A stretch of DNA of 39,436 nt from a virus: positions 1 through 39,436 of the IMG/VR virus record IMGVR_UViG_3300032893_000152; one strand, 5' to 3'. Both the position numbers and the translations under genes were made by a program. Of this stretch, positions 2,807 to 38,181 are shown piece after piece. How positions within the stretch are numbered: the first letter of the stretch is position 1; every line of letters begins with the position of its first letter. The notes under the pieces were generated by a model. It was not told the DNA's origin. It saw only the letters and a program-made list of their open reading frames with translations, and ran no database searches.

Positions 2807-2947
2807 ATGGCTGTCTTGCAAGTAACACGAGGTGGCACTCCGACACTTCGGGTGCGTGGTTGCAAGCGGTCAGTAGGCACTCTCATGCCGGCTCTGAGGG
2901 CGGGAGCAAACCGGCAACTTTTCTTTCCTAACGGAATACAAGCATGA
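2807..2947 (+). CDS. Small protein, 46 aa, overlapping next start
   Basis: Frame MAVLQVTRGGTPTLRVRGCK... ends by reading through the dispersed motif copy (QLFFPNG) and stops at TGA 2945-2947, which overlaps the ATG of the next gene as ATGA. That overlap and the fill of an otherwise empty 160 bp favour a real, translationally coupled gene. The lack of a strong ribosome-binding site argues against it. Function unknown. Confidence 0.4.
   Translation: MAVLQVTRGGTPTLRVRGCKRSVGTLMPALRAGANRQLFFPNGIQA
2916..2936 (+). repeat. Dispersed motif copy
   Basis: AACTTTTCTTTCCTAACGGAA, ending 7 nt before ATG 2944; also readable in frame as the end of the possible 46-aa gene. Confidence 0.8.
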
Positions 2948-3393: not shown

Positions 3394-3413
3394 AACTTCT
3401 TTTCCCTAACGGA
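3394..3413 (+). repeat. Dispersed motif copy
   Basis: Variant AACTTCTTTTCCCTAACGGA, starting 3 nt after the stop at 3391 and ending 7 nt before ATG 3421. Confidence 0.8.
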
Positions 3414-4096: not shown

Positions 4097-4117
4097 ACTT
4101 CCTTTTCCCCTAACGGA
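4097..4117 (+). repeat. Dispersed motif copy
   Basis: ACTTCCTTTTCCCCTAACGG..., ending 7 nt before the GTG at 4125. Confidence 0.8.
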
Positions 4118-4778: not shown

Positions 4779-4797
4779 TCTTTTTCTCCTAACGGAA
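4779..4797 (+). repeat. Dispersed motif copy
   Basis: TCTTTTTCTCCTAACGGAA, immediately after a TAA stop and 8 nt before ATG 4806. Confidence 0.8.
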
Positions 4798-5622: not shown

Positions 5623-5864
5623 CGCCCGATTTTCGTCACGAAGCGGAAACCTGCTGTCGTCAAGTGTGCGATGCAATGGGGGCATTGCCGAACATTCTTG
5701 CCACTGAGATTATCCGCCGGGCACTCATCGAAGCCGCCCTCGCGGAACGCCGCCAACTGCACGAGAGTATCGAGGAAGCGATTCGCAATTATGCGGAGAT
5801 GGAACCTGACTTCCGCGACCCCGAAGACGTACTTCGCTCCGTGCTACCAGACCTTTCTTCCTAA
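5619..5864 (+). CDS. Hypothetical helical protein, 81 aa
   Basis: MTPDFRHEAETCCRQV... begins inside the previous stop (ATGA). Predicted mainly helical, acidic C-terminal half. The final codons and the TAA stop are supplied by a dispersed-motif copy (5852-5868): the last residues are encoded by its CTTTCTTCC and the stop is its TAA. No family recognised. Confidence 0.6.
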   Translation: MTPDFRHEAETCCRQVCDAMGALPNILATEIIRRALIEAALAERRQLHESIEEAIRNYAEMEPDFRDPEDVLRSVLPDLSS

Positions 5865-5868
5865 CGTA
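5852..5868 (+). repeat. Dispersed motif copy providing a stop codon
   Basis: CCTTTCTTCCTAACGTA; its TAA terminates the upstream gene and its end is 7 nt from ATG 5876. Confidence 0.8.
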
Positions 5869-6262: not shown

Positions 6263-6283
6263 CTCCTTTTCTTCCTAACGGAA
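6263..6283 (+). repeat. Dispersed motif copy
   Basis: CTCCTTTTCTTCCTAACGG..., between a TAA stop and ATG 6291. Confidence 0.8.
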
Positions 6284-8575: not shown

Positions 8576-11500
8576 ATGGGGAAGTCCATTCTGAAACGAC
8601 GGCGGAAGCCTTCCGAGAATGCGTTTGCGGCCGGCACGCTCCAGTTAGCCGATTTGCTCCGGCGCGACCCACAAGGGCAGCAGACCGACAACCGGATGGA
8701 GCAGAGTTCCCATTATAAGGGAATTTTGTATATTGCTATCCGTTCGATCATGGATTGCGTGTACTCGGCGACGGTGCAGATCAACAAGAAACATCGTCGC
8801 TACGCTCGTGTCTCGCTGCGTCGTCTGGAGAAGTCGCTTGACCGTCTCCGCGCGAGTGATCCCCGCTCTATTGCTCTCATCGAGAAGGCGCTTCCGACGC
8901 CACACGCGAACACGGAGGACGAGCAGTTCCGGCCGTTCGATGATCCCGACCATTCGCTCTGTAAGCTCATCGACCAACCGAACCGTACCGAGACGTTCAA
9001 CGAACTCCTCGCGCAGCTTGTCCTTCAGTACAACCTCACCGGCTCTGCTCTTCTGTGGGCGAATCCGAATCATCTCGGTGTGCCGGGCGAACTCTACGTG
9101 CTCCCGACCGCACTTTGTTGGCCGCAACCACCCACGGTGGATTACCCGGAGGGCTGGTGGCGTGTCACGCAATACTATCCTTCCGGTGGTTATGGCTTGC
9201 TGCCGTCCGCCATTGCCGGCGGTGGCGCTCCAGTCGATGCCCGCGACATTTTCGTATTCAAGAATCCGCACCCGCTCTGGCGGTGGGATGCTTACTCACC
9301 GCTGACCGCTTGCGCGACTCAACTGGATGTGCTGGAATCTATCGATATCTCGCGGTGGGCCGCGATGGATCGCGGTATTACTCCGGATATGGTGCTGCTC
9401 GCGCCCGGCGTGCAACAGGCTCAACTCGATGCGTATCTCGAACGTTTGAAACAGACCAATATCGGTAAATTCCGGCATCGCGGAATCATGGCGATTGGTG
9501 GCGATCAGTACGACTCCAAATATGACATTAAATTTCCTAGCCAAACGGCGAAGGACATGGACTACGGCAGCGGTTGGGATCAGATGGTAGCGTTTGCGCT
9601 TGCGGCGTTCGGCGTTCCCAAATCGGTTGCCTCACTCGCGAACACTGGCTCTTACGCCGAACTCTACGCGGCCCTCAAGCAGTTCCACACGCTCACCATG
9701 CGTCCGCTCGCGGCTCGTATGGGTGCGTGGCTGACCCGCAAGCTGGCTCGCATTTGGGGACGCGATTTTGCCATTGAACTCGACCTGCCGACCATCGACG
9801 ACCAGCAACTCCAAGAGCAGCAACTCAGTACCGACCTCGCACACGACGGTCTGACCTACAACGAATATCGCGCCACTCGTGGCCGTAAGCCGGTACCGGG
9901 CGGTGATGTGATCGTGTCGGTTTACGTCCAGGCACAGCAAGCCAAAGCCCAACAACAGCAACAGGCGACCGCTCCTCAGCCGCCAGCCGCCGAACCTTCT
10001 TCTCCTAACGGCCCTCCGGCTTCGCCCACCGGCGGCGGAGAGGAAGCGGCGCCGCAACAGCCCGCGCCGCAATCCGAACAGCAATCCGCTCCCGCTCCGC
10101 AGGGTGGTGATGAACTGGCGAACTTCCTCGGCCATCCGCAACCCGGTTCCGACGAGGGACACATCCAGAACTCGGTCGCCGATGCCGCGCTCCAGTCGCT
10201 CGGCGTGCCGCAATCCTCTTCTCCTAACGGAACTCAGGAGAAGGGCTACACGCCCGCTTACCTTAAAGCGAGTGGCTATCCCGGCACCAAAAAACCGCCG
10301 TTCCCGCGCACGGCAAAGCCAGTCACGCAGAAAGTAGCTGCGCCGGCTGGTGAAAACACCCGCTCGCCCGCTGCATCCGACTCGCTGCCGAAGTCGCAGG
10401 AAACCAATCGCGATCCGGGCGAACTTTACCCGGCTTCGACGACTGGCGCACCGCGTCAACAGACCGCTGCTGATACCAGTGCGCCCGCACCGCAACCTAA
10501 GCCGGCACCGAATCCCTTCAATCCGCCCGCTGGTCCGCCAAAGCCCAAAGCCCCGCCGGGCAGTGGTCAGGCAACCAGTGTGACCGCAGGTGAAAAGCAA
10601 ACAATCCAGAACAGTGTCGAACCGCCGACATCGCCACCGGTACCGCCGCCTACCAAGCCCGGCACGGTCGCATCCACATCTCCCACGGATGCGACACCGA
10701 ATAACCCGAATCGCGTGGCGATCAATCGGCAAACCGGCCGGCCGATTGCGAATCGTCCGACTCCGCCGACGCCCGCCACTCCCGCAGAAAGTACAACTAA
10801 CACCCGTACTCCGTTAGGAGAAAAAGAACTTCCCGGCGCTACGTCCGACGAGCACCTTGCGGCCGACGATCTGCCGACCGCTCGCGGTGTTGCCATGCCA
10901 ACGCGCGAAAGCGATCTGGCCCAATCGCAAGCTCGCGCGAAAGCCGTCATCAAAGACCCGGCGAAGTGGTTCTACACGCTACCGCGCGGCCGTTTGAACG
11001 AAGTGCGCGATGTAATGAGTCGGGCAATGCGGGGCGAGGATGTGCAGGCGCCCGCGTGGATGCACCCGGATGAAGCCTATGTGATGAAGTGGCTTACAGA
11101 GAAAGAGGCCCGCAACCAAAACATTCATCCGTCCAAGCTCGGCGAGATTACATCAAGCCCTGTGCCGCAGCAAGCAACGCCTGCCCAACCGCAACAAGCG
11201 ACCGGCCAGCAACCCACGCCACAGCAACCTGTACCACAACAACCACAACTGCCGCCAAACTTCGATTACGACGCGGCTGCGGAAGCAATTCGGGGCGGTC
11301 ACAATGTGGTGTACCGCTACACGACCTCGTTCCCGAATCCTGGGACGCGACACGAGATTCGCACCGGTGCGGACCTCAAGCAATACCTCGATTCGGGCGG
11401 TACACTCAGTGACGAAGACGCGATGCGTGCGGGCGTGGCAAAGCCATCGGCCACACCAGCAGATGCCGTTCCTACGGTGCAACCCATCGCGAGCAAGGAG

Positions 11501-14104
11501 GAGATTGCGACTCTCGCGAATGCAGGGCAATTGCCGCCCGCTGAACACTTCGCTGAAGCTGCGAAATCAGTCCCCGTTCAGACGCCGGAACACGCTCAGG
11601 TGCTTCGCAACGTCGCATCGTGGGTTGGCAACTACGCGGAGAAACACGCGGACGCCGTTGCACAGCATTTCAAGATTGACCCTCAACAGGCGTTCCGTCT
11701 GCTCGTTCACGCGATGACCGCTATCGCTCACCACGCGGCGAATAATCTCGCTACCACCGGCAATCCAGAATCCGCCAATATCAACGCGACGCTGACACAC
11801 ACACCCACGGGCCGCACCGCGAACATCAAGTTCCATCCGCGCACTATTGCAGCTCGCCAAGCGATCAACGACATTGTTGATCATCTGCGCGGTGGCAATG
11901 AACTGACCGAACAGCAAGCGGCGGAAGCGACAGAACATCTCAATCATTTGCCGCAGGACGAAGTGGAACAACTGGCGAACTCGCTCGAACGCTCCCGCAC
12001 TGTGGGACAGCATCGAGCGATGTCGCGAGCAGCCAAGTGGGCGGAAACCGCCGCTGCTGAGCAACCCGCTGAAGAAGGAACGTTAGGGAAAGAATCTCCC
12101 GCTGCCGCACCCTCCGACGAGCAGATTGCTAATCAGGCTCTCGCTCAACCTTCTTCTCCTAACGCACCTTCGGACGAGGAGATTGCGAACTCTGCGCTGC
12201 GCCAACGTCCTGTCTCTGCACCAATTGCCGCCGGCTTCCAAGACATCAATGCCGCACCGCGCGGTCCGACCAACGAAGAACTGGCAGCGAGCGAACCGGG
12301 CGCGCACCTGCATCCCAATGTTCAGGTCCGTCGTATCAACGGCAAAGATTGGGTCGTTAAGGGTCGCAATGGGAAATCGCGTGCCGTTCAGAACGAAGTC
12401 GCGACTTCAACACTTGCTCGCAGCATCGGTCTCGACGTGCCGCAAGTTCATGCAGTCAAATTGCACGGACAGGACGCGGCGGCGGTCGAGCATGTTCCGG
12501 GTCGCGCTCTCTCGCGCATGACGCCGGATGAACGCCGCGCAGCAATCGCTTCAGTGCCGCGCGAGGAACTCGACAAGCACGCTCTCTTCGATTACCTGAT
12601 CGGGTCGTCTGATCCCAACAACGGGAACTACCTCATCTCCTCAGACGGCAAGCTCGTCGCCATCGACAAGGAGGCGTCGCTTCGCAACGGAGATGTGGGC
12701 GACCGCGCTCACTTTAACATTCCGTTCTTCCTCGAAGATGCTCAACCGCCAAACACGCCAGCCGGTCAGTATCAATTCAGCCCGGAATCGCTCGCCCACA
12801 TGGCGGAAGCCGGGCGTGAAATGGCCGATACGCTGACTCAGATGAATCGCCCGGCGGATGCACGCGGTGTGCTGCGTCGGGCACAAGTGCTCGCCAATCT
12901 CGCTCGCGCTGGTAAGCCCGTTACAGCAACGCAACTCGATCATGCTGGTGCAGCATTCGATAAGACCTCACCACCGCCGAACTTCTTGCGTCGCGTCGCA
13001 TCCTCCGTGCGAAACTTCCTCAACCCATCCGTTGCGCCGGCAACTTTTTCTCCTAACGAACATCACCGCTCACCCATCGGCCCGGTGTTCACACGCAACC
13101 CGGATACCGGACTCATCGACAGCGCCCGCGTCGGAGTGCCTGCGATGTCCGTGCCCGAAAAAGCGAGCGAGATTCCGCGCCTGCCGAACCTTTCGAAGAA
13201 GCAAAAGAAAGTTGAAACGCGATTTGCGGACGCCTACGAAGCGAACCCAGACGGCATGGCGGACAAGTATCTCAAGGCGCTCGCGGAACGCAAAGTCGGT
13301 GTCGAACCGAATGTCTTTGCAACCGACGATGTGAAGATGCTCAATCGAGACTGGAATCCCGGCAAAGTCAAGGCCGGTGAACCGCTCGACAAAGACACTT
13401 CGAAAGCAATGGCGAAGTACAACACCGCTGTTCACGGCACTGCGAACGCTATTGCCAAGCGGGCATTCCTCAAATACCTCGATAGAACGGTTCAGCACTT
13501 ACCACCAGATAAAAGAACGGTCTTAATAACAAACGGAGGTTGTGCAGGCGGCAAAGGTAGTTCTCTCGCTCGTGCGAATGATCAATCGTCGCCTTACCAC
13601 GGTAAGATTCCAGTGGCTTCTCAAGTCGGCGCCGTCTGGGATGCGGCCGGCGAGCAAAACGCTACGGAGAATGAGTGGATCTGGCGAGAGTGCAAGAAAC
13701 GCGGCATTACGCCGGTCTTTGCTTATGTGTGGGCTGATCCCAAAGACACCTGGGAAGCAAAAGATCGCGGGGTCGTGCGTCGTGCCATGCGAAAGGGTAG
13801 AATGGTGGATGCCCGTCTGTTTGCGGACTCCTACGCGGAGGGTGCGAAGAATATGCACGCCTTCTGGGAGAAGCACAAGGACGACGGCACCAAGTTTGTC
13901 TTTCTCGATAACCGAAAGAAGGGCGACCCGAAGGTTCTCCCGACTTTCCCAAAGGAAACGCTTCAGTGGAACGCCGAGCAGATTTATCACATGGCCGTCG
14001 AGAGTCTGAAGAAGCACGCCAAGAAGGGCACACTCCCGAAAGCGCTGCTGAAGGGCGGTCTGGCCGGAACGAAGATTTGGGGCAAGCCGCGTCCGACGAG
14101 TTAA
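8576..14104 (+). CDS. Portal protein fused to kinase-like and Zeta-like P-loop domains
   Basis: 1842 residues. Residues about 1-450 are an HK97-type portal (YKGILYIAIRSIMD, LVLQYNLTGSALLWANPN, FALAAFGVPKSVASLANTGS, TLTMRPLAARMGAWLTRKL), the ring through which DNA enters the head. Residues 450-780 are Pro/Gln/Ala-rich linkers. Residues about 1244-1450 look like a PI3/4-kinase or HipA-like catalytic fold (HALFDYLIGSSDPNNGNYLI, then KLVAIDKEASL; D...N and ID motifs at about 1345-1366). Residues about 1560-1842 carry a P-loop GGCAGGKGSS at 1654-1663, as in Zeta-toxin-type kinases. The dispersed motif is read in frame at 9996, 10216, 12150 and 13042 (SPN) and, reversed, at 10811 and 12081 (LGEK, LGKE), always in linkers. 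A normal portal is about 400-550 residues. There is no strong ribosome-binding site at ATG 8576. The C-terminal domains might be injected or face the head interior; that is inference. Confidence 0.85.
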   Translation: MGKSILKRRRKPSENAFAAGTLQLADLLRRDPQGQQTDNRMEQSSHYKGILYIAIRSIMDCVYSATVQINKKHRRYARVSLRRLEKSLDRLRASDPRSIALIEKALPTPHANTEDEQFRPFDDPDHSLCKLIDQPNRTETFNELLAQLVLQYNLTGSALLWANPNHLGVPGELYVLPTALCWPQPPTVDYPEGWWRVTQYYPSGGYGLLPSAIAGGGAPVDARDIFVFKNPHPLWRWDAYSPLTACATQLDVLESIDISRWAAMDRGITPDMVLLAPGVQQAQLDAYLERLKQTNIGKFRHRGIMAIGGDQYDSKYDIKFPSQTAKDMDYGSGWDQMVAFALAAFGVPKSVASLANTGSYAELYAALKQFHTLTMRPLAARMGAWLTRKLARIWGRDFAIELDLPTIDDQQLQEQQLSTDLAHDGLTYNEYRATRGRKPVPGGDVIVSVYVQAQQAKAQQQQQATAPQPPAAEPSSPNGPPASPTGGGEEAAPQQPAPQSEQQSAPAPQGGDELANFLGHPQPGSDEGHIQNSVADAALQSLGVPQSSSPNGTQEKGYTPAYLKASGYPGTKKPPFPRTAKPVTQKVAAPAGENTRSPAASDSLPKSQETNRDPGELYPASTTGAPRQQTAADTSAPAPQPKPAPNPFNPPAGPPKPKAPPGSGQATSVTAGEKQTIQNSVEPPTSPPVPPPTKPGTVASTSPTDATPNNPNRVAINRQTGRPIANRPTPPTPATPAESTTNTRTPLGEKELPGATSDEHLAADDLPTARGVAMPTRESDLAQSQARAKAVIKDPAKWFYTLPRGRLNEVRDVMSRAMRGEDVQAPAWMHPDEAYVMKWLTEKEARNQNIHPSKLGEITSSPVPQQATPAQPQQATGQQPTPQQPVPQQPQLPPNFDYDAAAEAIRGGHNVVYRYTTSFPNPGTRHEIRTGADLKQYLDSGGTLSDEDAMRAGVAKPSATPADAVPTVQPIASKEEIATLANAGQLPPAEHFAEAAKSVPVQTPEHAQVLRNVASWVGNYAEKHADAVAQHFKIDPQQAFRLLVHAMTAIAHHAANNLATTGNPESANINATLTHTPTGRTANIKFHPRTIAARQAINDIVDHLRGGNELTEQQAAEATEHLNHLPQDEVEQLANSLERSRTVGQHRAMSRAAKWAETAAAEQPAEEGTLGKESPAAAPSDEQIANQALAQPSSPNAPSDEEIANSALRQRPVSAPIAAGFQDINAAPRGPTNEELAASEPGAHLHPNVQVRRINGKDWVVKGRNGKSRAVQNEVATSTLARSIGLDVPQVHAVKLHGQDAAAVEHVPGRALSRMTPDERRAAIASVPREELDKHALFDYLIGSSDPNNGNYLISSDGKLVAIDKEASLRNGDVGDRAHFNIPFFLEDAQPPNTPAGQYQFSPESLAHMAEAGREMADTLTQMNRPADARGVLRRAQVLANLARAGKPVTATQLDHAGAAFDKTSPPPNFLRRVASSVRNFLNPSVAPATFSPNEHHRSPIGPVFTRNPDTGLIDSARVGVPAMSVPEKASEIPRLPNLSKKQKKVETRFADAYEANPDGMADKYLKALAERKVGVEPNVFATDDVKMLNRDWNPGKVKAGEPLDKDTSKAMAKYNTAVHGTANAIAKRAFLKYLDRTVQHLPPDKRTVLITNGGCAGGKGSSLARANDQSSPYHGKIPVASQVGAVWDAAGEQNATENEWIWRECKKRGITPVFAYVWADPKDTWEAKDRGVVRRAMRKGRMVDARLFADSYAEGAKNMHAFWEKHKDDGTKFVFLDNRKKGDPKVLPTFPKETLQWNAEQIYHMAVESLKKHAKKGTLPKALLKGGLAGTKIWGKPRPTS
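9996..10011 (+). repeat. Dispersed motif, in-frame coding copy
   Basis: CTTCTTCTCCTAACGG inside the portal linker, read as PSSPNG. Other in-frame copies in the same gene are at 10216, 12150 and 13042 (forward) and at 10811 and 12081 (reverse). Confidence 0.75.
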
Positions 14105-14719: not shown

Positions 14720-17168
14720 CATTCTGCGGGCGGTCATTCACTTGCGGGCGCAGGGCAAGCACCGCGAGGCGGACTTGCTCGCCTCGCACCTGCCGCCCGC
14801 ACACCCGCCGCTACCGCATCTCGGCGAGCCGCCGGCTTTTTCTCCTAACGAAGAACCGGATTCCGCACCGCGTATCTCCGGTGCACTCCAGGCATCCGGC
14901 CCTCCGTCGCCGTCCAATCCCCACGGCGCCGGCTCGCTCCCTGCTCACACCAAAGCCTACGAGATTTTCGGCAATCCTCAGCCCGCGCCGCACAGCTACG
15001 GCTGTGTGTATCTTCGCATTCCCTCGCCCGTCTCCGACCGTGTACTCCGCATCGGACAGTCGATCCCCGATACCGAACTCGCAGCCGATGGCCGCGAGCA
15101 AGAAATCCACGTCACCGCTCTCCACGGTCTGACCAATCCTGATCCGGAGCCAATCTTCAACATCCTGTCGCACTTCCGGCCGATCCGTCTACGCTTGACC
15201 TCGGTCAGCGTGTTCGCTGGCGAAGAATATGATGTCTTAAAAATCGACGTGGAATCGGATCAACTCACGCAACTCCACGAAACGCTGCGCGACTTGCCGC
15301 ACTACGCCAAGTTTCGCGATTTTCGACCACACTGTACAATTGCCTATTTGCGTCCTGGTCTTGGCTCGCTGTGGGCGGCACAGTTCACGCCATTTGATGC
15401 CGACTGTGTATGCGAGACGGTTGTGTTCTCGGACGCCAGCGGTACACGCTATCTCTACCCGCTCGGCCGCACAATCACCATCACCAAAGCGATGTCCTCT
15501 CTCAACGCGACCACGGGCGGTTCGCTCGTCGCTCCTCCCGCGCAGGGCAAGCCCGTTCGTCTCAAGCGGCGGAAGCGGACTTTAGTTGCGGTGCAAAAGG
15601 CGCTCGCCAGCATTGGCGCCGTGAATTCTTTTTCTCTAACGTCCGTACCGGAGTTGGTGGAGGAAGCGACCGCCGCTCCCGCCTTTCCCGACATAGCCGA
15701 TCCGGTGGAGTCATTCTTCGGTTCTCCTATCTTCAAAGCGTTCGACGAGTCGCGTGTCTCGCGCGAAAAAACCAAGCATGACGGCAAGCGTCCCGGTGAA
15801 TTTGCACCGAAGAATACCGGCGGTACTAAGACGGAAGAGGGCAAGAGCAATCGCGTCAAGAAGAAAGGCGAGGAGGACGAAACACCAGAGTGGGACGGCA
15901 CAATCGAACAACGCGAAGTGAAGCGAGATCGCGGCGGCTGGCACGAGGATAATGTTGCATCGTGGGATTTCTATGATGATGGCGGACTTTTCCCGCAGAC
16001 AATCGCGCTGGAATCTGGTGAGTATACGCCGCCGGGTGCCGATGAGTCGATTCCAGTGTACCGCTGGGTGAGTTATCAAGATGGGGATGGTTTTCAGAGC
16101 GACTACGGGCAATGGACAGCGGATGAATCCGTAGCGCGCAGTGGTGGCAAGCATTTCGCACGGATAAGTGATCAAGAAGCACCCGACCCGGAAGATTCTG
16201 ACATCCGCAACGTCTCGCATCAGCAGTGGCTAGACCGCGATGTGATTGCTCATTACGACAACGAGCGTGGCGCTACTCGGCAAGTGCGACTCGAAGAAGG
16301 CACATTCGAGTTTGCGGGTGATACTCACAATTGTTACCGCTGGACAACGCGAGATGACGAAGATGGCGAATGGACGCTCAGTCGCCGACAAGCGATTCGT
16401 GATGGTAAAGAGTACGCGGGAGACATGCACCACGAATCCGAGGAGAAGGACGCTGACGAAGTATGGCAGGAGATGTTCGGCGAGGATGGTCCTTCGCCGC
16501 TTGAAATCTGCGGCGCTCTCGATGGAAGCGAATACACATCCAAAGTTGACGACAACGGCAACCTAGAAGTGACGATCACGCATCCGAAGATCGAGGATTG
16601 CATCCGCACTTTCTACCGCACAGACGACGGGCGGGTTTATGTCCACAACGATCTGTTCATCGTCAAGGACAAGTACCAGAAAGAGGGTATCGGTGCGACG
16701 GTTTTCGCTGCGCAAGCAACCGCGTGCGCCAAGGCGGGCGTTGCGTGGATCGAATGCCACGCAGCGGGACCGCCCGCTAACCCAACGATGAACGGCTACT
16801 ACACATGGCCGCGATTCGGTTACGATATGTCGCTATCAGAATACAAACCGGAAACGCAGGCGAAATTCAAGAAACTGTTTCCAGACGCCAAGAGTGTACT
16901 CGACATCATGGCGACGCCATCGGTTGAACTTTCGCCGGACGATTTCGCGGAAACCAAAGCGAAGCTCGACGCCCTGGATCGCAAGTTGAAAAAAGAACCA
17001 CAAGAACGGACCACAATTTCGGGAGGTGACTGGTGGAAGGTCAACGGGACGCAAATGCTCAACGCCAAGTTCGATCTGTCGCCGGGAAGCCGGTCGCTGG
17101 CGATCCTGAGCGATTACCAAAAGGAACTGCGGGCCAAAAAGGAAAAGGCCATGAAGAAATCGACTTGA
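14667..17168 (+). CDS. 2H phosphoesterase / GNAT multidomain head-region protein
   Basis: 833 residues. Residues about 100-270 are a 2H phosphoesterase with both catalytic tetrads: H148-V-T150 (EIHVTALHG) and H222-C-T224 (FRPHCTIAYL). This fold cleaves 2'-5' or cyclic phosphodiester bonds; the phage anti-CBASS enzyme Acb1 belongs to it. At residues 275-294, GGSLVAPP and its flanks match the major capsid protein (157-176). Residues 320-370 are typical of head-protein N-termini (KHDGKRPGEFAPKNTGG). Two copies of a YRW-x-D-D module follow (about 468 and 556). Residues about 620-740 are a GNAT acyltransferase (YQKEGIGATVF acyl-CoA loop), then FDLSPGSRS. Motif copies are in frame at 14836 (FSPNE) and 15626 (FSLTS). 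ATG 14667 has AAGGA 7 nt upstream. Substrates unknown. Confidence 0.75.
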   Translation: MHTGKTMKPLPLDLKPADILRAVIHLRAQGKHREADLLASHLPPAHPPLPHLGEPPAFSPNEEPDSAPRISGALQASGPPSPSNPHGAGSLPAHTKAYEIFGNPQPAPHSYGCVYLRIPSPVSDRVLRIGQSIPDTELAADGREQEIHVTALHGLTNPDPEPIFNILSHFRPIRLRLTSVSVFAGEEYDVLKIDVESDQLTQLHETLRDLPHYAKFRDFRPHCTIAYLRPGLGSLWAAQFTPFDADCVCETVVFSDASGTRYLYPLGRTITITKAMSSLNATTGGSLVAPPAQGKPVRLKRRKRTLVAVQKALASIGAVNSFSLTSVPELVEEATAAPAFPDIADPVESFFGSPIFKAFDESRVSREKTKHDGKRPGEFAPKNTGGTKTEEGKSNRVKKKGEEDETPEWDGTIEQREVKRDRGGWHEDNVASWDFYDDGGLFPQTIALESGEYTPPGADESIPVYRWVSYQDGDGFQSDYGQWTADESVARSGGKHFARISDQEAPDPEDSDIRNVSHQQWLDRDVIAHYDNERGATRQVRLEEGTFEFAGDTHNCYRWTTRDDEDGEWTLSRRQAIRDGKEYAGDMHHESEEKDADEVWQEMFGEDGPSPLEICGALDGSEYTSKVDDNGNLEVTITHPKIEDCIRTFYRTDDGRVYVHNDLFIVKDKYQKEGIGATVFAAQATACAKAGVAWIECHAAGPPANPTMNGYYTWPRFGYDMSLSEYKPETQAKFKKLFPDAKSVLDIMATPSVELSPDDFAETKAKLDALDRKLKKEPQERTTISGGDWWKVNGTQMLNAKFDLSPGSRSLAILSDYQKELRAKKEKAMKKST

Positions 17169-17700: not shown

Positions 17701-17720
17701 ACTTTATTTCCCCTAACGAG
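17701..17720 (+). repeat. Dispersed motif copy
   Basis: ACTTTATTTCCCCTAACGAG, 10 nt before the TTG start at 17731 and inside the transcript leader of the promoter at 17662. Confidence 0.7.
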
Positions 17721-18222: not shown

Positions 18223-18242
18223 ACTTTCTTTTCCTAACGGAA
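18222..18242 (+). repeat. Dispersed motif copy, closest to consensus
   Basis: AACTTTCTTTTCCTAACGGA..., starting in the last base of the upstream stop and ending 13 nt before ATG 18256. Confidence 0.85.
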
Positions 18243-18764: not shown

Positions 18765-18783
18765 CTTTCCATCCCCTAACGGA
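18764..18783 (+). repeat. Dispersed motif copy at edge of degenerate array
   Basis: A weaker copy (GCTTTCCATCCCCTAACGGA) just before the first degenerate CRISPR repeat at 18787. No start codon of a clear gene follows it. Confidence 0.6.
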
Positions 18784-18786
18784 GAT

Positions 18787-19303
18787 GTGGTCATCCCTGT
18801 GCAACGGGCTTGTAGTTGCAACTTCACGCCGGATGCGGCCGTGAAGTCGCTGTTCAGCGTTATCATCCCTGTGCAGCGGGTTTGTAGTTGCAATGCAAGA
18901 AGACGGCGCATGATGGCAAATAGGCCGGTGATTGTTAACCCTGTGCAGCGGGTTAGTAGCTGTAACATGTGGCGAACGAGACGGCATCCGTTAGCCTTGT
19001 GCAACAGGTTCTTAGTTGCAACGCGACGGCTTCCTTTGCAGCGTAGAGTCGTTATCCCTGTGCGACGGGTTTGTAGTTGCCACCTGCACGCGAAAGTGGA
19101 GTAGCACTTGCGATCTTGTCGTGTTGTCACCCCTGTGCAGCGGGTTTGTAGCTGCAACGTATAAGGTGTCCCGCGTTACGTTCTCCGTAGTGGTCTGTTG
19201 TTGTCCCTGTGCAGCGGGTTTGTAGTTGCAACCGTCACAGAGCCAACATTGATCGCCCTCGCTAATGGTTATCAACCCTATGCAGCGGGTTAGTAGCTGC
19301 AAC
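18787..19303 (+). CRISPR. Degenerate CRISPR-like array upstream of the effector (8 units)
   Basis: Eight diverged 36-nt units at 18787, 18859, 18931, 18987, 19048, 19123, 19197 and 19268, with spacers of 36, 36, 20, 25, 39, 38 and 35 nt. The 3' two-thirds (CTGTGCAGCGGGTTTG...GTAGTTGCAAC) matches the regular array's repeat; the 5' third drifts. The hairpin arms are kept by compensation: TGCAAC/GTTGCA in some units, TGCAGC/GCTGCA in others, with TGCAGC/GTTGCA (G-U) intermediates. Spacers are all different, and I could match none to the rest of the window. It ends 31 nt before the effector's ATG. It is either a decayed array or a set of crRNA-like leaders with a fixed role. Confidence 0.75.
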
Positions 19304-19334: not shown

Positions 19335-21251
19335 ATGGCATTTGGTCACGCTTCACTTCCGACTCGCAAATACTCCTACGGTGTCTGCGAGTTCATTCCG
19401 CGCAAGTACATTGCTCCTGCGCCCGATTCCACTCCTGCCGTTCCTGCTGCATCCCCTTCACGCGTTCCACGCCAGCGGTTCGAGGGGCACGATCTTGCCA
19501 TTGAGCAAATGCGTCTTGCGCATGTCTTCCAGAACAAGCTTGTCAAGCTAGAGCGTACGCGGCGGCACTTGATCGAGCAGGCGATTCTCGCTCACGATTC
19601 TGCTTACGTGCAAGCTCTCGCGGATGCCGAGCACGAGCAAGCGGTTCTTAATCTCTTGCGCCACCAATTGCGTCGAGCGAACATCCACAACCGAGCGATT
19701 GTTTCGGAAGAATCGCTTGCCATTCGCGCTCGCAATCAGGAGCCGGTCGCGAAAGCGGCGTGGGATACTTGCTATCAAGCTCGCCGTGTCGCGTTCACGA
19801 ATGCTGCTGTTAAATCGGCAATCGCTACCATTGACTCGCAAAGCGAAGCTGACAAAGCGGCGGCTCGCACTGAGGCAGTGCAGCACGGGCTGGCGTGGCC
19901 GACTTCGTTGCAGGTGATGGGACGTGTCAAGAAGACGGGCGAGATGCCGCAGTTTCGTAATCTTCCGGATGACGAGCCTATCGAACTGAATCTTGAAAAC
20001 ACAATTTCAGTTCAGTTTCAGCGGAAGCCGGATAAGTTGTCACCCAAACAGCCGGTCCTCGACTCGAAAGGCAATCCGCGCATTCACCCGCGCAGCAAGC
20101 GGCCCATGATGGCACATGCGAGCGGATCTTCGCTCGATACGGCCAATATCTTCCAGCCAAATACGATGTGCTGGATTGAACGCACGGCTGACCGCAAGTT
20201 GGTCTACGTTCACTTCCGAGTCGGTTCTACCGACAAGGGTAAACCCGTTTGGGCCAAGCTGCCCACCGTGTTGCACCGACCGCTCGCAGAAGGGCAAGTA
20301 AAGTGGGTGCATCTCTCGCGGCGCCGGATCGGTTCGCGGTTCAAGTGGGATGTGATGTTTGACATTGCTCGGACGGAAGAATGGGATACGCACCCGGCCG
20401 GTGAAGAGCGAGCCAAGTCTGGCGTCGTGGCGGTCGCGCTCGGCTGGCGTGTGATCGACGGATTAGTTCGTGCCGGTGAATGGGTCGGTGATGACGGTGT
20501 GCAGGGCGCTATTCGTATTGCTGACGATCTAGTATCGCAGTGGCGATATCTCGAATCGCTGCAATCCATTCGCGACCGTGAATTCGAGCGTTGGAAGGCG
20601 GGCGTCCTCAACTTCGTGCAATCCCAAGTGTCTCTCTCGCCGGAGTGGCAGGCTCGCACGGCTAATCTTGCACGCTGGCGTTCACCGCGCCGACTGGTGG
20701 CTCTCGTGTTGTGGTGGCGGTCGAATCGAATCGACGGCGACAAGGATGCGTTTTTGGCTGCGGAAGGTGAATTGATCTGTCGCCCTGGTCAGCGGAACTT
20801 TTACAGTGGCGGTCGCAAGCAAGACAAACATCTGGCAGACGAGCAAGCTCACTTGCGTTCCCGGCTGATTTCCTACCGCAAGCACCTGTATCAACAACTG
20901 GCGATTGACTTGTCGTACCAGTACAAGCAAGTGATTATCGAAGAAATCGACTGGCACAAGATCGCCGAGAACCCGGAAGTGGAAGACGCGGACGAGAAGG
21001 TGAACAAAACTTATCGGGCCATCTCAGCGTGCGCGTCGCTGCGGAATTGTTTGACGCAGTACATGGAAGAAGTACAAGTTTCAGCGGTGCACATTATCGA
21101 CACGTGCCACCGCTGCGGTATTCGGGTAAAACATCCGAACGCGGGTCGGTGGATTCGGTGCGAGCGGTGTCGTGGTGGATCAGTGGACCGTGCAGAAAAT
21201 GCCGCCCGCAACATGCTTTTGCGGGCTAATGCGATTGTTTCGACAATTTGA
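19335..21251 (+). CDS. cas12: Compact Cas12-like type V effector, RuvC-I Asp replaced by Ala
   Basis: 638 residues. The N-terminal about 200 are helical (recognition-lobe-like) and about 220-350 beta-rich (wedge-like, WVHLSRRRIGSRFKWDVMFD). The RuvC domain is split: RuvC-I SGVVAVALGWRVIDG, where the usual catalytic Asp is Ala368 (codon GCG 20436-20438); RuvC-II VIIEEIDW with Glu536; zinc finger C591-H-R-C594 and C609-E-R-C612; RuvC-III VDRAENAARNML with Asp618. Losing the first Asp should abolish DNA cutting while leaving guide-directed binding, as known for Cas12m and the transposon-linked Cas12k. The subtype cannot be assigned from sequence alone. A TnpB protein is less likely because two arrays of one repeat family flank the gene. 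No cas1, cas2 or cas4 nearby. AGAGG is 9 nt before the ATG. Confidence 0.8.
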   Translation: MAFGHASLPTRKYSYGVCEFIPRKYIAPAPDSTPAVPAASPSRVPRQRFEGHDLAIEQMRLAHVFQNKLVKLERTRRHLIEQAILAHDSAYVQALADAEHEQAVLNLLRHQLRRANIHNRAIVSEESLAIRARNQEPVAKAAWDTCYQARRVAFTNAAVKSAIATIDSQSEADKAAARTEAVQHGLAWPTSLQVMGRVKKTGEMPQFRNLPDDEPIELNLENTISVQFQRKPDKLSPKQPVLDSKGNPRIHPRSKRPMMAHASGSSLDTANIFQPNTMCWIERTADRKLVYVHFRVGSTDKGKPVWAKLPTVLHRPLAEGQVKWVHLSRRRIGSRFKWDVMFDIARTEEWDTHPAGEERAKSGVVAVALGWRVIDGLVRAGEWVGDDGVQGAIRIADDLVSQWRYLESLQSIRDREFERWKAGVLNFVQSQVSLSPEWQARTANLARWRSPRRLVALVLWWRSNRIDGDKDAFLAAEGELICRPGQRNFYSGGRKQDKHLADEQAHLRSRLISYRKHLYQQLAIDLSYQYKQVIIEEIDWHKIAENPEVEDADEKVNKTYRAISACASLRNCLTQYMEEVQVSAVHIIDTCHRCGIRVKHPNAGRWIRCERCRGGSVDRAENAARNMLLRANAIVSTI

Positions 21252-21396: not shown

Positions 21397-22466
21397 GTCA
21401 TCGTCCTTGTGCAACGGGTTTGTAGTTGCAACCCACACGGCCCGAGGAAGGCTCACGGCACCGCCGGACGTCGGCACCGATGTCATCGTCCTTGTGCAAC
21501 GGGTTTGTAGTTGCAACGCGCCTAAAGCGCGCACATCCGCTACAGACGTGCGCTGGCTGTCATCGTCCTTGTGCAACGGGTTTGTAGTTGCAACGGGTGC
21601 GGGAGCGCCGGTACGCCCGTATCGAGCGGCGTCATCGTCCTTGTGCAACGGGTTTGTAGTTGCAACCCGGCCGTATGTGGGCGTGGGCGCAGCCCGACAG
21701 CAACGTCATCGTCCTTGTGCAACGGGTTTGTAGTTGCAACTTGCTTTCCTCGATCTCGCCTTCCGACGCAACTGCTTCGTCATCGTCCTTGTGCAACGGG
21801 TTTGTAGTTGCAACTCTCCCCTCAGAAATGTCCGCCGCGGACGAAAAGCCGTCATCGTCCTTGTGCAACGGGTTTGTAGTTGCAACTCTTCGAGGAAGAA
21901 CGGAATGTTAAAGTGAGCGCGGTGTCATCGTCCTTGTGCAACGGGTTTGTAGTTGCAACGACGGCTGCTGACTGAGCACGGTGCCGGTCGCTGCGCCGTC
22001 ATCGTCCTTGTGCAACGGGTTTGTAGTTGCAACCACATCATCGACGGCAAGCCGCAGTTCTCGCGGCTAGTGTCATCGTCCTTGTGCAACGGGTTTGTAG
22101 TTGCAACCCATCTCAGTGAGGATGTCGCCGAGCAAGAGCGATCGTCGTCGTCCTTGTGCAACGGGTTTGTAGTTGCAACAACACCTTGTTTTCGCTGATG
22201 CCGAGTATTTTTGCGGTCATCGTCCTTGTGCAACGGGTTTGTAGTTGCAACCACGCCATCGACCACAAATCGGACATGTTCCGTTATGGTCGTCGTCCTT
22301 GTGCAACGGGTTTGTAGTTGCAACGCGAATCATGTCGTACACACCGCGCCCGACGCCCGTGGTCATCGTCCTTGTGCAACGGGTTTGTAGTTGCAACTTG
22401 TCTGAAGTCGTGGAGTGGGTTTCCGCCTGCGAGTCATCACCCGTGCAACGGGCTTGTGGTTGCAAT
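21397..22466 (+). CRISPR. Regular CRISPR array: 15 repeats, 14 spacers
   Basis: 36-nt repeat beginning GTCATCGTCC and ending GTAGTTGCAAC. Repeat starts: 21397, 21482, 21559, 21631, 21705, 21779, 21851, 21924, 21998, 22072, 22144, 22216, 22289, 22362, and a shortened degenerate last copy at 22433-22466. Copies at 22144 and 22289 have G for A at position 4. Spacers are 49, 41, 36, 38, 38, 36, 37, 38, 38, 36, 36, 37, 37 and 35 nt, all different. Positions 14-19 (TGCAAC) pair with 29-34 (GTTGCA) around a 9-nt loop, placing a small hairpin just before the spacer, as expected for a type V crRNA handle. No spacer match was found by eye in this window. Short frames such as SSLCNGFVVAT are translated repeats, not genes. 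Confidence 0.97.
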
Positions 22467-22547
22467 GCGGTCGTCCTGTACAACTGATACCGCTACGCCT
22501 TAAACTGCCACACTCCCAAGTTGAATCACTCTCTGCGGAGCGGGACG

Positions 22548-25500
22548 GTGCGCACTCCTGACGATCTGATTCATACAGCCGTTCGCACGGCACATGCTGC
22601 CGGACGCGAGCAAGCTCTCGTTACTATTTGTGCCTCGCTCGGTCGCGAACTCGCGTCCCGTCTCTTGCCGTCCTTTACCAAAGCTGTCGATACCGCTCCA
22701 GTAATACACGACCCGGACCTTGCGGCCGATCCACACGAAGCGTTGCTTCTCGCACAACTCGACCACCTGATTCACTGTCTCGAATCACACACCAATCCCG
22801 ATCACGGCTGGCGTGCTCTTCACGCTCTCTGGTATGAACCGGATGCCCTTGCGTCCGTTCTCGCGCCGCACTTTCACAACGACACACACGCACAGAAGGC
22901 AGTGGCTTACGCTCTCTTTCTGAAAGCCGCCGAGCGTTCGCCCAAAGGAGGTATCAGTCTCAAGGGCACGTTCTACCCTGGCGGTCAGTGGATCCCTTCC
23001 TCGGTGATCGCTACAGCATCACCTGAAGAGAAAACCGAACTCTCGGAACGCTCTTCTGGTGCACGTCCGAATCCACTCAATGCCCGCGAACGCGTTTCCC
23101 AAGCGGCTCGCAATCGTCGTGGCACACGCGATGAGGTACGCAAGCGAATTGCCGATATCGGATGGGATATTCTCCGCAAGCCCAATGATCGCACACCAGA
23201 CAAGTACCGCGACCTTGCGGAAGCTATCCGGCAGGGCGTCAAAGATGGGCATGTTTCACTCCGCGAATTGCGAGAGACGCGACTCAAGCTCGGCGCCTCG
23301 TTCGCGGGCGCCCGTCGCAAGGATCTAATGGTAGCCGCTCTGCTCCACTATGCCGAGCAAGCGGGCCGCGAACTTTCTTCTCCTAACGCGCCGGCCGAAA
23401 CGCACGAGCAAACCCGCGATGAATTTCGTCAACACTTTGCGGGCTTCGTCCCCGATGCGCACAAGGGCGATGAAAAGCTCGCGGCGGTAGTTGGTGCGCA
23501 AGCTGACCGCATCCACAAACAGCACGTGGAACGCGCACTCAAAGAGGGACGTGATGTATCCTGGCGGGTGCTCGATGCCTACCCGGACCTCAAGGCGAAG
23601 TATAAGACTGGCGAGGAGGAGTCGGCACAGACGCTGAGCGAACAGCAATCATCAGAATCCCCGTCTGAGCAACCTTCTGTGGCTGACATCACTGCAAATC
23701 CGGGCGCTGCGTTAGGGAAAGAAACTCCCGCTACGGCTGCGCCTGCCACTTTTTCTCCTAACGTCTCGGCTTCACCGCTCCACGTGCTCGCACAGCATGC
23801 TCACGATCCCGCGAAGCTCCAGGCTGAAGCCAAGAAACTTGAGGAACTTGCCAATCGCACGTCTGCACAAGGCGGTTCACTTGCGTTCCACGATGCGATG
23901 ACGGCCGCTCTGCGTGGCGAGCACGGCCCTGAAGTGCGCGACGCGGTTTCGCGAGCACTCGATGACTGGCATTCGCACGGCGGTAGCACTGCAAAGCGCT
24001 ACGCTCGCGTTGCGGAGGAAATGGCGAAACTGAGTAAAGCTATCCAGCCGCAAGCGGAATCGTTAGGAGAAGAAAGCTCATCCCCCGCTCAACCCGCCCG
24101 CTTTACTGGCAATGTGACGGTATCCAAGTTTGATCCTGGCGCGACAGAGCGATTGCCGGGCGTGCTCTCACGAGTATTCGGCACCGGTGCTACACCGGCT
24201 CATGTGGCCGATGCGCTCGGTGCGGAAGACGGTGCGCAAGTCAGAATCGGGCAGGCTCGCACTCTGGAAGATGGTAACGACTATATCGGCGCGACGATCA
24301 AAACGCCGGAAGGGATTTCAGCCTCTCGCAGTCTTAACTACGATCCCAAAACGGGTCGCAAGTGGATTGTCAATGATACCATTCATGCCGATTCGCCGGG
24401 ACAAGGCTACGGAACCGCTCTGTTTGCACGCCAAGCACAGCAAGCCGCTGCGCTGGGAATAAACAGCATTGAAGCCGGGGCGGATCGCGGCGCGAAGAAC
24501 GGCTACTACACACTGCCGCGATGGGGTTTCGATGGGTCGATTCCTGCCGTTCAACGTGCCAAGTTGCCGCCCGAACTTGCACATGCGAAGACGCTACTGG
24601 ATTTAATGGAAACGCCAGCGGGGCGAGCATGGTGGAAACAACATGGCGTACCGGTGGATACGCAGTTTGACCTCACACCGGGATCGAGAAGTCAGCAGGC
24701 TCTTGCAAAGTATCTGGCTGAAAAGTCAGCGAGTCGCTCTACCGAAATCACTCCACAAGAACCGCTACCATCGCACGAAGAACTCACTCGCCGCATTTCC
24801 GAGCGTCGCAAGCAGCGCGATGCTGCTGGTCGCGTGAGTGAGCACGCTCCGCCATCCGAGGAAGAATTTGCTGCCGCGAGCAAGCCAGCACAAGCTACAC
24901 CGCCCGTAGATTTGCAAGCTACGCCAGAGGTAGCTAAACTGCCTTCGGTGGCCGATGTGGTCGCGGCGCCCGGTGAGCATACCGCTACGCCAACCGGCCA
25001 GAAATTTTCTTCTCCTAACGAACCCCCGGCGCCGGCTCACAAGGAACCATCACAATCCGACGAGCAGCACGACTACGCGACCCAATCCGCTCGCTCCATT
25101 GTCACTACACCAGACGAATCCGAGCGTGACAAACAGCGTGCTACTCGCGCCGCCCTGCCGGAAGTGCCGCACGCAGATGTCATTCATTCGCATGCGGAAT
25201 CGGTCGAACGCGAAGCTCGCAAATCCTCTGTGCCGTGGGATGTGTCCGGTGCCGACCGGATTAGTTTGCTCAATGATATTGCTCGCTCTGGTAACTTCAG
25301 CAATGCAGGTAATATTGCCGAAGCCATCCGAAACTACGCCAATCGACCGGGGCACTTGGAACGCAAGGTCGGGCAAACGGTGGAGTCACTGGCCAAGCAC
25401 ATCATTAGTCGCATGACGCCTGCTCAGAAAGCGAACCTCGCGAACGAGTACCGCGTGCAGAATAAGCACAATCCCGACACGGCGCCGGTGATGCGAGAAC

Positions 25501-26518: not shown

Positions 26519-26974
26519 TCATTCTTCGCGAGGGTTAATCGTCTGCCACGGCCCGCGATCCTGGCTGTTCTCGAACTTCAATGCGGCGAACTCTTCGAAC
26601 GTCCACTCTTTCTCCGGCTTCGCGGCTTCCGCACAGTTCAGCACGCGACCGCCCTCGAAGTCGCTACGCGAGAACATCAGCACTTTCTGCTGCTCCGACT
26701 CGACCAGTAGGAGCGGGTATTCGTTGTCGCAGATGTCAGTGCTGATGCCGAAGCCGGTCAAGTTATTCACACCGCTCGCACCGATCATCTGACAGAAGAT
26801 GATACGGGCAAGATACGGTGGGTCACTCCACCTGCCTTTGCCGCGCGCCAGTGCCTCTGCCAACTTCTCCGGTACGCTGTAGCCGCTCCAGTGCGTGTAG
26901 AATACCACGCAGGCGCCCGGTTCGTTGAACTTGCTGCCGTTGGTGCGGACAACGATATTCGCTCGGTCTCCCAC
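26519..26974 (-). CDS. Conserved phage hypothetical protein (GDRANIVV family)
   Basis: 151 residues. GDRANIVV...CVVFYTHWSGYSVPEKLAEA then GRWSDPPYLARIIFCQMI and DNEYPLLLVESEQ match a family of unknown function that I recognise from phages and prophages. GTG 26974 is chosen because the motif copy lies right in front; read on this strand the motif supplies TTAGGAG, a good ribosome-binding site 7-8 nt upstream. Confidence 0.75.
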   Translation of the reverse strand: MGDRANIVVRTNGSKFNEPGACVVFYTHWSGYSVPEKLAEALARGKGRWSDPPYLARIIFCQMIGASGVNNLTGFGISTDICDNEYPLLLVESEQQKVLMFSRSDFEGGRVLNCAEAAKPEKEWTFEEFAALKFENSQDRGPWQTINPREE

Positions 26975-26992
26975 TTTTTTCTCCTAACGGAA
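26974..26992 (+). repeat. Dispersed motif copy, antisense to its gene
   Basis: CTTTTTTCTCCTAACGGAA on the plus strand, abutting the GTG start of a minus-strand gene; the complement reads TTAGGAGAAAAAAGTG. Confidence 0.8.
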
Positions 26993-28198: not shown

Positions 28199-28217
28199 CG
28201 TTAGGGAAAGAAAGTTA
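28199..28217 (-). repeat. Dispersed motif copy
   Basis: Read on the minus strand AACTTTCTTTCCCTAACG; it overlaps the stop of the coiled-coil gene and leads the gene at 28180. Confidence 0.8.
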
Positions 28218-34908: not shown

Positions 34909-35307
34909 ATGGACGCAACTCGTCTTCGCCCTCTGATTGAGGACGCCATCGAGTCGCAACGTCAGCTTGACGTGGCAATAGCGGCTCAGCAAGAGGCTGA
35001 GAAATCCGTCGAGCGCGCTCGCGAGCGGCAGCGCACTCACGTCGCCAAGCTCAAGGACGTGATTGGCCGTACATTCGTCATTTACGGCAGCAAGGTACTC
35101 TACGTCAGCACTTCCGAAATTCGTCTGTGCTCCGATGAACTCGTTAACGTGCCTGTGGCCGGGCCGTTGCCGCCGCCGATCCCGGAAGTGGTTGCGCCTC
35201 CCGCTGCCGAAGTCATCGCTATCAAGCCATTAGAAGAAAAGCGCACGACAGGGCCGGGTATTCCACTGTCGGGCGGGAAGGTACCGCCGGTCGCTGCGAA
35301 GAAGTGA
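34909..35307 (+). CDS. Hypothetical coiled-coil/Pro-rich protein, 132 aa
   Basis: Residues about 5-50 are a coiled coil (ESQRQLDVAIAAQQEAEKSV then ERARERQRTHVAKLKD), followed by a short beta-rich domain (IGRTFVIYGSKVLYVSTSEI) and a Pro-rich tail. GGAGG lies 8 nt before ATG 34909. The transcript probably starts at 34843 and carries the hairpin in or near its leader. A degenerate reverse motif (35228) encodes PLEEK in the tail. Confidence 0.6.
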   Translation: MDATRLRPLIEDAIESQRQLDVAIAAQQEAEKSVERARERQRTHVAKLKDVIGRTFVIYGSKVLYVSTSEIRLCSDELVNVPVAGPLPPPIPEVVAPPAAEVIAIKPLEEKRTTGPGIPLSGGKVPPVAAKK

Positions 35308-35326
35308 CCTTTTCTCCCTAACGGAA
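35307..35326 (+). repeat. Dispersed motif copy
   Basis: ACCTTTTCTCCCTAACGGAA, beginning at the previous stop and ending 8 nt before ATG 35335. Confidence 0.8.
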
Positions 35327-36682: not shown

Positions 36683-36702
36683 CTTTCTTTTCCCCTAACG
36701 AG
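36682..36702 (+). repeat. Dispersed motif copy
   Basis: ACTTTCTTTTCCCCTAACG..., from the stop at 36682 to 7 nt before GTG 36710. Confidence 0.8.
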
Positions 36703-37035: not shown

Positions 37036-37088
37036 AACTTTTCTTCTTGTCAGTCCTGTGCAGCGGATTTGTAGTTGCAACCCTAACG
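37036..37088 (+). repeat. Dispersed motif interrupted by a lone CRISPR-like repeat
   Basis: The left half of the motif (AACTTTTCTTCTT, 37036-37048) and the right half (CCTAACG, 37082-37088) flank a single CRISPR-like unit (37046/37049-37081) ending GTAGTTGCAAC. The unit has TGCAGC/GTTGCA arms like the degenerate array, not the regular array. It lies 28 nt before ATG 37110. Confidence 0.75.
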
Positions 37089-37109
37089 TCCTCCCCGGAT
37101 GCCTCCCTC

Positions 37110-38153
37110 ATGTCGTTCCGTGACCTGCCTGAGAAAGTCAACATCCTCATCGCTCGCCTGTCCTACAACGGCTACGAGCGCGTTGAAATCGCGAATTGGC
37201 TCTGCCAGACGGTACTCGCTCTCGACGGCAAGCATCCGCGTGTCGGCAATGTGGCGCACAAGATCGTGATGGGCTATCCGACGCCGCGTGTCCGCAATCA
37301 AGTGATCGCACTCGGACTCAAACGCGGTTTCCACTTCGCGGTGATGATCGACGACGACATTATTCCCGACGTGCATTCCCGCGACCGCGCAGTGTCCTAC
37401 GGCAGTCAGTCCGAGGATACCACTCGCGCGCCAGTGATGACCGACCCGCTGCCGATCATGCGTGACCAGTGCAATTTCTTTCCCGCCGCGCTCGATTTCG
37501 CACTCGAACACCCTGGTCCGTGCGTGATCGGCGCACCCTACTGCGCGGGACCGCCGGAGGAGCGCGTGTTGGTGTCTCGATTCCGCGAAAGACAATCCGA
37601 TGATCCGAACGCCATCGCAGGTGGCTTGCAACTGGAGTGCTTCACCCGCGATGAGTCGGCTTTGCGTACCGGGATTGAAATGGTTTCCTCGCTTCCCACT
37701 GGACTCATCCTGATCGACTTGCGGGTGTGCGATGTGCTGTCAGCGCCGTGGTTTTCCTACGAGTACCAAGACGACACCGAGACGGAACTTGCCAGTACGG
37801 AAGACACGGTGTTCAGCCGCAACGCGATGTTCCTCGGTGTGCCGCAGTATTGCACTTGGCAAAGTTTTGCAGCCCATGCCAAGACCAAAATCGTCGGGCG
37901 CCCGCGCAAGCTGCCGAGTTCTGCGATTCCGCCGCAAGTCGAGAAAGCCATGCGGGAGCAGATCGCCCGCGAGCAGCGTGCCGCACGCCCGGCCGACAAA
38001 CCCAACGAGCGAGCGTTGCAACTGCTCAGTCGACTCTACGCGACCGATGACGATGCGGCACCGGTGCTGCCATTCACGCCGGACGAGGAACCGCATCCGA
38101 ACGGCGACGCCACGCACTATGCTCACGGTGGAGCGACCGGCGCGCCGGACTGA
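37110..38153 (+). CDS. Glycosyltransferase-like protein (GT-A fold)
   Basis: 347 residues from ATG 37110; an in-frame GTG at 37020 would read through the inserted repeat and overlap the previous gene. TPRVRNQVIALGLKRGFHFA then VMIDDDIIP has the D-x-D metal site of GT-A enzymes. SSLPTGLILIDLRVCDVLSA then PWFSYEYQDDTE and STEDTVFSRNA resemble the acceptor region of phage GT2-type enzymes. A charged, Pro-rich tail follows from about 290. It probably transfers a sugar to DNA, virion protein or host polysaccharide; the target is unknown. The leader carries the lone repeat. Confidence 0.6.
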   Translation: MSFRDLPEKVNILIARLSYNGYERVEIANWLCQTVLALDGKHPRVGNVAHKIVMGYPTPRVRNQVIALGLKRGFHFAVMIDDDIIPDVHSRDRAVSYGSQSEDTTRAPVMTDPLPIMRDQCNFFPAALDFALEHPGPCVIGAPYCAGPPEERVLVSRFRERQSDDPNAIAGGLQLECFTRDESALRTGIEMVSSLPTGLILIDLRVCDVLSAPWFSYEYQDDTETELASTEDTVFSRNAMFLGVPQYCTWQSFAAHAKTKIVGRPRKLPSSAIPPQVEKAMREQIAREQRAARPADKPNERALQLLSRLYATDDDAAPVLPFTPDEEPHPNGDATHYAHGGATGAPD

Positions 38154-38154: not shown

Positions 38155-38181
38155 AACTTTTCTTTCCTAACGTTAGGAGAT
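38155..38181 (+). repeat. Two dispersed motif copies overlapping as a palindrome
   Basis: ACTTTTCTTTCCTAACG and its reverse CGTTAGGAGA share TAACGTTA, giving CCTAACGTTAGG. The reversed half supplies AGGAG 7 nt before ATG 38187. Confidence 0.85.

Follow-up and report, generated by a model that had tools for sequence, protein, structure and literature searches.

A solitary CRISPR (clustered regularly interspaced short palindromic repeats) repeat of the type V-M kind is located at positions 37046..37081 (+ strand) of the IMG/VR virus record IMGVR_UViG_3300032893_000152, where it splits one copy of a motif dispersed over the same genome. The window analysed is the whole record, a linear contig of 39,436 bases with portal, capsid and head-maturation genes, which also carries a homologue of the CRISPR effector Cas12m and two repeat arrays. 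The lone repeat could be a one-unit CRISPR RNA (crRNA) that turns a nuclease-dead Cas12m into a repressor of the dispersed motif sites, a reading that we favour tentatively and with slightly less than even confidence. It is strengthened by the presumed guide, which starts with the phage's own dispersed motif, and by the presence of the same arrangement in the Methylomonas plasmid pLM6.

A lone repeat inside a dispersed motif

The unit (CTTGTCAGTCCTGTGCAGCGGATTTGTAGTTGCAAC), recognized by a covariance model and by its fold, is a full 36-nucleotide (nt) repeat of the degenerate-array type and the twenty-fourth repeat unit of the contig, standing alone. When it was held out, a covariance model of the 11 distinct other units still recovered it with 40.5 bits (E 5e-8). 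Its nearest relative is the degenerate-array unit at 19123-19158, from which it differs at 5 of 36 positions, versus 8-9 of 36 for the units of the regular array. The closest other unit is found at the end of the regular array, 14.6 kb away, and the cas12m gene lies at a distance of ~16 kb. Outside both arrays the contig contains no other solitary copy, the next-best match of the covariance model having an E value no better than 0.8, and a search of Rfam gave no match.

The dispersed motif consists of a pyrimidine tract followed by CCTAACG, and is present in 28 copies on the + strand and 9 on the - strand. The lone unit separates a left half at 37036..37045 (+, AACTTTTCTT) from a right half at 37082..37088 (+, CCTAACG), which abuts the last base of the repeat with a gap of 0. 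On a left-half matrix built from the 35 other motif sites, AACTTTTCTT scores 9.0, in the middle of the range of true sites, and this score is equalled or exceeded by 0.095% of all positions (P 9.5e-4 at an insert length of 36); insert lengths of 34-36 are all compatible with a split motif (P 0.0004-0.001). Removal of the 36 nt restores GAACTTTTCTTCCTAACG, a normal dispersed motif that has TTTTCTTCCTAACG in common with the intact site at 6274. The chance that a random + strand position is followed flush by a 7-mer of the motif type is 0.07%. For a unit that already lies in the leader of a gene, we estimate that a motif would follow flush in a few percent of cases, which makes it only moderately surprising.

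The initial annotation had described a lone CRISPR-like unit that splits a CTCCTAACG motif upstream of a gene and far from the array, and this observation is confirmed by the covariance model, the left half and the flush CCTAACG. It had also considered that the motif halves might match by chance. The small size of the feature, and nothing else, speaks for an unrelated leader that merely resembles a repeat and a motif; this explanation can be discarded for practical purposes, since the values for the repeat (E 5e-8), the left half (P ~1e-3) and the flush right half (7e-4) refute it. Searches of IMG/VR and GTDB contigs with the repeat, the motif, Cas12m and the downstream protein did not find a close relative or a homologous leader free of the insertion. 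The suggestion that repeats of this type can move is not supported, because the contig holds only one such copy and a single precise junction is no proof of transposition.

The units of the contig are predicted to fold with a stem of the form TGCARC:GYTGCA followed by AC, and with a pseudoknot between the three bases upstream of the stem and the first three bases of the loop. Cas12m crRNAs have been reported with the same layout of stem and pseudoknot (PMC11013384). In the lone unit the predicted stem pairs 37059-37064 with 37074-37079 (+), as in the array units, and the pseudoknot pairs 37054-37056 with 37065-37067 (+). Across the 12 distinct units, 98.1% of the pair cells are standard, pseudoknot included, and three pairs are altered on both sides, a number reached by 3 of 500 shuffles; sliding the partners abolishes the pairing signal. 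The lone unit shows four differences from the degenerate-type consensus, two of which affect both partners of the C9-G22 pseudoknot pair and replace it by U9-A22. All nine scaffold pairs are intact, one of them through a compensating double change. These comparisons support the capacity of the lone unit to form a complete crRNA scaffold, and provide moderate evidence that its predicted fold is under selection, moderate because related units are not independent of each other. The scaffold of stem and pseudoknot ending in AC has the same layout in seven V-M arrays, and a scan based on this layout also recovers array units of Allomeiothermus, Methylomonas, Pelobacter, Rctr197k and two IMG/VR phages.

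The integrity of the scaffold bears on the view that the unit is an inert relic, namely a repeat that entered the leader by copying or recombination, the motif being a favoured point of insertion, and that now decays without function. There is only one copy, at least five of its positions differ from every array unit, and both the motif and the leader tolerate small insertions, all of which would be expected of a relic. The preservation of the nine pairs, one by a compensating double change, and the same type of arrangement in the unrelated plasmid pLM6 are not, and we consider this explanation unlikely.

The position of the unit allows another function. It sits within the leader of the gene at 37110..38153 (+, 347 amino acids), on the coding strand of this gene, whose ATG is found 28 nt past the repeat. 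The product of this gene had been labelled glycosyltransferase-like in the initial annotation; the label finds no backing in Pfam, NCBIfam or PHROG, searches of which gave no Pfam match, no meaningful NCBIfam match and one weak PHROG of unknown function. Cas12m might bind the repeat within the 5' leader of the mRNA, perhaps cleave inside it, and cover the region before the start codon, lowering translation or altering the stability of the message. The last unit of the degenerate array shows the same geometry, with 31 nt between its end and the start codon of cas12m, and Cas12m is known to act on repeats within precursor crRNA (PMC11013384). Such a cis-acting role leaves the junction exactly at the motif core unexplained and does not account for pLM6, where the solitary unit stands ~160 nt away from the next gene and has a guide that matches elements resembling operators. 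It is the main alternative, in itself an improbable one, but compatible with a one-unit crRNA, and both could operate together. A motif copy at 18765..18781 (+), 5 nt upstream of the first unit of the degenerate array, together with the position of the last unit before cas12m, suggests leader control of the effector gene itself.

Effector, presumed guide and other Cas12m elements

The effector gene (19335..21251, +) encodes 638 amino acids and sits between the degenerate array (18787..19303, +, 8 units), directly upstream of it, and the regular array (21397..22466, +, 14 units followed by a degenerate terminal one). Its product matches the PADLOC Cas12u1 profile with 2e-60 (Cas12u1 being the older name of Cas12m) and a Cas12m structure of the PDB with 3e-35, and a profile of seven effector homologues matches Cas12m2 as well as other Cas12m structures. 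By sequence, it combines Cas12m homology with a degenerate RuvC site, two features of a type V-M effector. At the RuvC-I position, where the other members of the alignment carry D, H or N, the phage protein has Ala in place of Asp (VAVALGWR), and because of this replacement it is probably unable to cut DNA. Cas12m proteins have been described to bind DNA without cutting it, to use a single crRNA and no trans-activating crRNA, and to recognize T- and C-rich protospacer-adjacent motifs (PAMs) (PMC11013384).

The presumed guide of the lone unit, with a length of 20 nt taken from PMC10442227, covers 37082..37101 (+, CCTAACGTCCTCCCCGGATG). It begins CCTAACGTCC, and its first 7 nt are the motif core. 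As a seed, CCTAACG occurs at 35 positions of the contig where the 5' flank consists of pyrimidines only, and by this count it ranks first among 5540 7-mers, while the seeds of the 23 other units have 0-4 pyrimidine-flanked sites. The 5' flanks of the motif sites are TCT (20), TTC (5), TCC (4), TTT (3) and others. For the related nuclease-dead TldR repressors a 6-nt seed is sufficient (PMC13418256).

From these features we infer the following course of events. The lone repeat would be transcribed together with the leader of the gene at 37110-38153, and the repeat in the transcript would fold into the V-M handle of stem and pseudoknot. Cas12m would bind and trim this RNA, and the sequence after the repeat would become the guide. 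As the unit sits exactly inside a motif copy, the first seven guide bases would be those of the core, with the pyrimidine tract ahead of every other copy as the PAM. The resulting ribonucleoprotein, probably non-cutting, might bind many of the ~36 motif sites and serve there as a repressor or roadblock directed by RNA. The locus of the lone unit itself would be spared because the repeat, which ends in AAC, replaces the pyrimidine PAM there. The purpose might be self-control of the phage or exclusion of its relatives.

The search for solitary units was extended to six further Cas12m elements (G001, pLM6, Rctr197k, pMESIL02, G002 and pPRO1). Scanning for further copies, as the initial annotation had advised, gave no other in the window but did reveal solitary units in the plasmid pLM6 and in the IMG/VR phage G001. 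Plasmid pLM6 carries a five-unit array and a solitary V-M unit at 185566-185601, which differs at 1 of 36 positions from an array unit with a compensated pseudoknot. Its 20-nt guide (TAAATGCATTTTGCCAGCGG) matches ten other sites of the plasmid at 16-18 of 20 positions, most of them paired as palindromes, and this number of matches is equalled by just 0.13% of random 20-mers from the plasmid. The sites adjoin mobI/parM, traL, a hypothetical gene below mobH, traF, a gene for a DNA-binding protein and a neighbouring intergenic site, so that several of them border genes of conjugation and partition, and their 5' flanks are TTT, TTA or TCT. Related plasmids, pFW12EY and pUP202, have elements similar to these sites, and Cas12m was not found in either of them; hence the guide could act on pLM6 itself or on its relatives. 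An empty site could not be recognized for pLM6, since homologous genes on two other plasmids have unlike upstream DNA.

Phage G001 (124.6 kb) carries, in addition to a regular 23-unit array, one solitary unit in an intergenic leader (71522-71557). The 13-kb IMG/VR contig G002, too short to judge, has a six-unit array and no solitary unit. Altogether, solitary V-M units are present in three of the six elements long enough to judge (the phage studied here, G001 and pLM6), and in two of these three (the phage and pLM6) the guide corresponds to a dispersed motif of the element itself.

Several points weigh against the one-unit crRNA. In the contig the guide agrees with the motif sites at only 7 of its 20 bases, and beyond the seed the best sites reach 14 of 20, no better than chance as judged with shuffled tails. 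A strict TTN flank is found at only 8 of 36 motif sites, and the nearest relatives found for the effector are only ~28% identical to it. No sigma-70 promoter-like site was found near the lone unit. The adjacency to the motif may reflect a preference of insertions for leaders. Among the other elements, the solitary guide of G001 has no second site in its contig, solitary units were not found in Rctr197k and pMESIL02, and Pelobacter pPRO1 has a four-unit array only, with no solitary unit at the stringency used. The proposal of the initial annotation that the repeat and the following leader sequence form a one-unit crRNA is partly supported: it gains from the complete scaffold, from a guide that opens with the dispersed motif and from the parallel in pLM6, and in the phage contig the match is limited to 7 nt. 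Much of the weight is borne by pLM6. The reading does make a concrete prediction, comprising guide, sites and flank, in two independent elements.

Motif sites and neighbouring features

The dispersed motif occurs in gene leaders and also inside long open reading frames (ORFs). Leaving aside the lone-unit site and the copy beside the degenerate array, 11 copies on the + strand precede an ATG or GTG by 9-16 nt: 1532..1548 (14 nt before ATG), 2917..2933 (10 nt, ATG), 3395..3411 (9 nt, ATG), 4099..4115 (9 nt, GTG), 4778..4794 (11 nt, ATG), 5850..5866 (9 nt, ATG), 6264..6280 (10 nt, ATG; the intact counterpart of the interrupted motif), 18223..18239 (16 nt, ATG), 35307..35323 (11 nt, ATG), 36684..36700 (9 nt, GTG) and 38156..38172 (14 nt, ATG). 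Copies inside ORFs on the same strand include 9994..10010 in ORF 8576-14104 (other + cores there at 10223, 12158 and 13052), 14834..14850 in ORF 14667-17168, and 23372..23388 in ORF 22521-25700 (other cores there at 23757 and 25014). There is a further + copy at 26973..26989, with additional + cores at 17712, 28619, 29507, 29943, 32123 and 38437. On the - strand a copy is found at 28199..28215, with the other cores of this strand beginning at 38177, 35772, 24067, 23716, 17620, 14219, 12087 and 10818. In host-type genomes the motif gave single matches only, in ten unrelated genomes; it is not common in sequenced genomes, and no host was identified in this way.

One spacer of the regular array (21887..21923, +, 37 nt) is identical to 12702..12738 (-) of the same contig, a protospacer inside the portal-containing ORF 8576-14104 with the 5' flank TTGAGCA. 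One spacer of G001 likewise matches positions 54153-54188 of that phage's genome perfectly, over 36 nt. The 5' flanks of these protospacers in the phage contig and G001 are GCA and CGG, which are not T/C-rich. G001 also has a three-unit degenerate array at ~106172-106325 on the minus strand, with spacings of 72 and 50 and far from its regular array, so that its degenerate and regular arrays parallel the two-array layout of the phage contig under study. Three Candidatus Manganitrophus plasmids carry exactly one V-M repeat directly behind cas12m (4733-4788 in one of them), with no array detected. The guide, TCAGAATCCTGAACTAACGA, is identical in all three and has no convincing target.

Within the window, the 833-amino-acid product of ORF 14667-17168 has a domain of the 2'-5' RNA ligase superfamily (Pfam PF13563, E 6e-9), and 27429-27725 is a region of dense repeats spaced 12 and 18 bases apart.

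Comparison with known systems

A prior report of such an arrangement was not found in the open-access literature searched. The closest relatives are the type V-M CRISPR-Cas12m systems (PMC11013384, PMC10442227), with which the phage shares the effector family by sequence, the 36-nt repeats with a 3' stem, a pseudoknot and a terminal AC and, as would be expected for its effector, DNA binding without cutting. However, known crRNAs derive from arrays, whereas the phage unit is solitary and its presumed guide comes from the element's own dispersed motif, and the RuvC-I residue of the phage protein is Ala instead of D, H or N.

Solitary repeat units in viral genomes have been described as RNA anti-CRISPRs (Racrs) against most CRISPR types (PMC10651486), and like them the lone unit is a single, full and intergenic CRISPR repeat without a neighbouring repeat. 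Its RNA might accordingly be a decoy that ties up the Cas12m of the host or of a rival element and blocks CRISPR interference. Nevertheless, catalogued solitary units typically lack associated cas genes (PMC10651486), whereas here cas12m and two arrays share the contig. The effector being the phage's own, a decoy would mainly inhibit the phage's own system, and the guide would match the motif only by coincidence, all of which makes this role quite improbable. The guide side matching a genome-wide motif, together with the presence of the effector and arrays on the phage, suggests a targeting rather than a decoy role.

TldR repressors (PMC13418256) are also phage-borne, nuclease-dead members of the TnpB/Cas12 superfamily and use a short guide. 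The phage Cas12m, judged from its sequence, is probably likewise a nuclease-dead protein of the TnpB superfamily, the likeness consisting in the shared superfamily only. The TldR guide RNA is of the TnpB type, is encoded beside its gene and has flagellin as single target; in contrast, the phage unit is a CRISPR repeat, is not next to the effector gene but ~16 kb from it, and would address many sites in its own genome.

In mycobacteriophages, stoperators are many short asymmetric sites spread over the phage genome, mostly in one orientation with respect to transcription (PMC6550527, PMC9283540), as are the copies of the dispersed motif. In stoperator immunity these sites are read by a protein repressor (PMC6550527), whereas the reader proposed for the phage would be an RNA-guided Cas12m. 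A broader view is that the phage uses a nuclease-dead Cas12m with a one-unit crRNA as its immunity repressor, which would silence motif-bearing genes in the resident phage and in relatives that enter, much as stoperator repression does but with an RNA guide. Single V-M repeats would then be of general use to mobile elements, and in pLM6 they would be directed at genes of conjugation; as a whole this view is rather unlikely. The one-unit crRNA in itself suggests that mobile elements with a non-cutting Cas12m could switch from immunity to the regulation of many genes through a single stray repeat, and borrowing a motif already spread over the element would be an array-independent route from CRISPR to gene regulation.

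Finally, crRNA-like regulators of the CreR/CreA and scaRNA (small CRISPR-Cas-associated RNA) type (PMC10097628) also employ a repeat-like unit and a partly matching guide, through which a CRISPR effector comes to repress promoters of the element itself. Their effectors are of class 1 or Cas9 and are aimed at a single promoter, that of a cas or toxin gene, whereas the phage would combine a dispersed motif with Cas12m.
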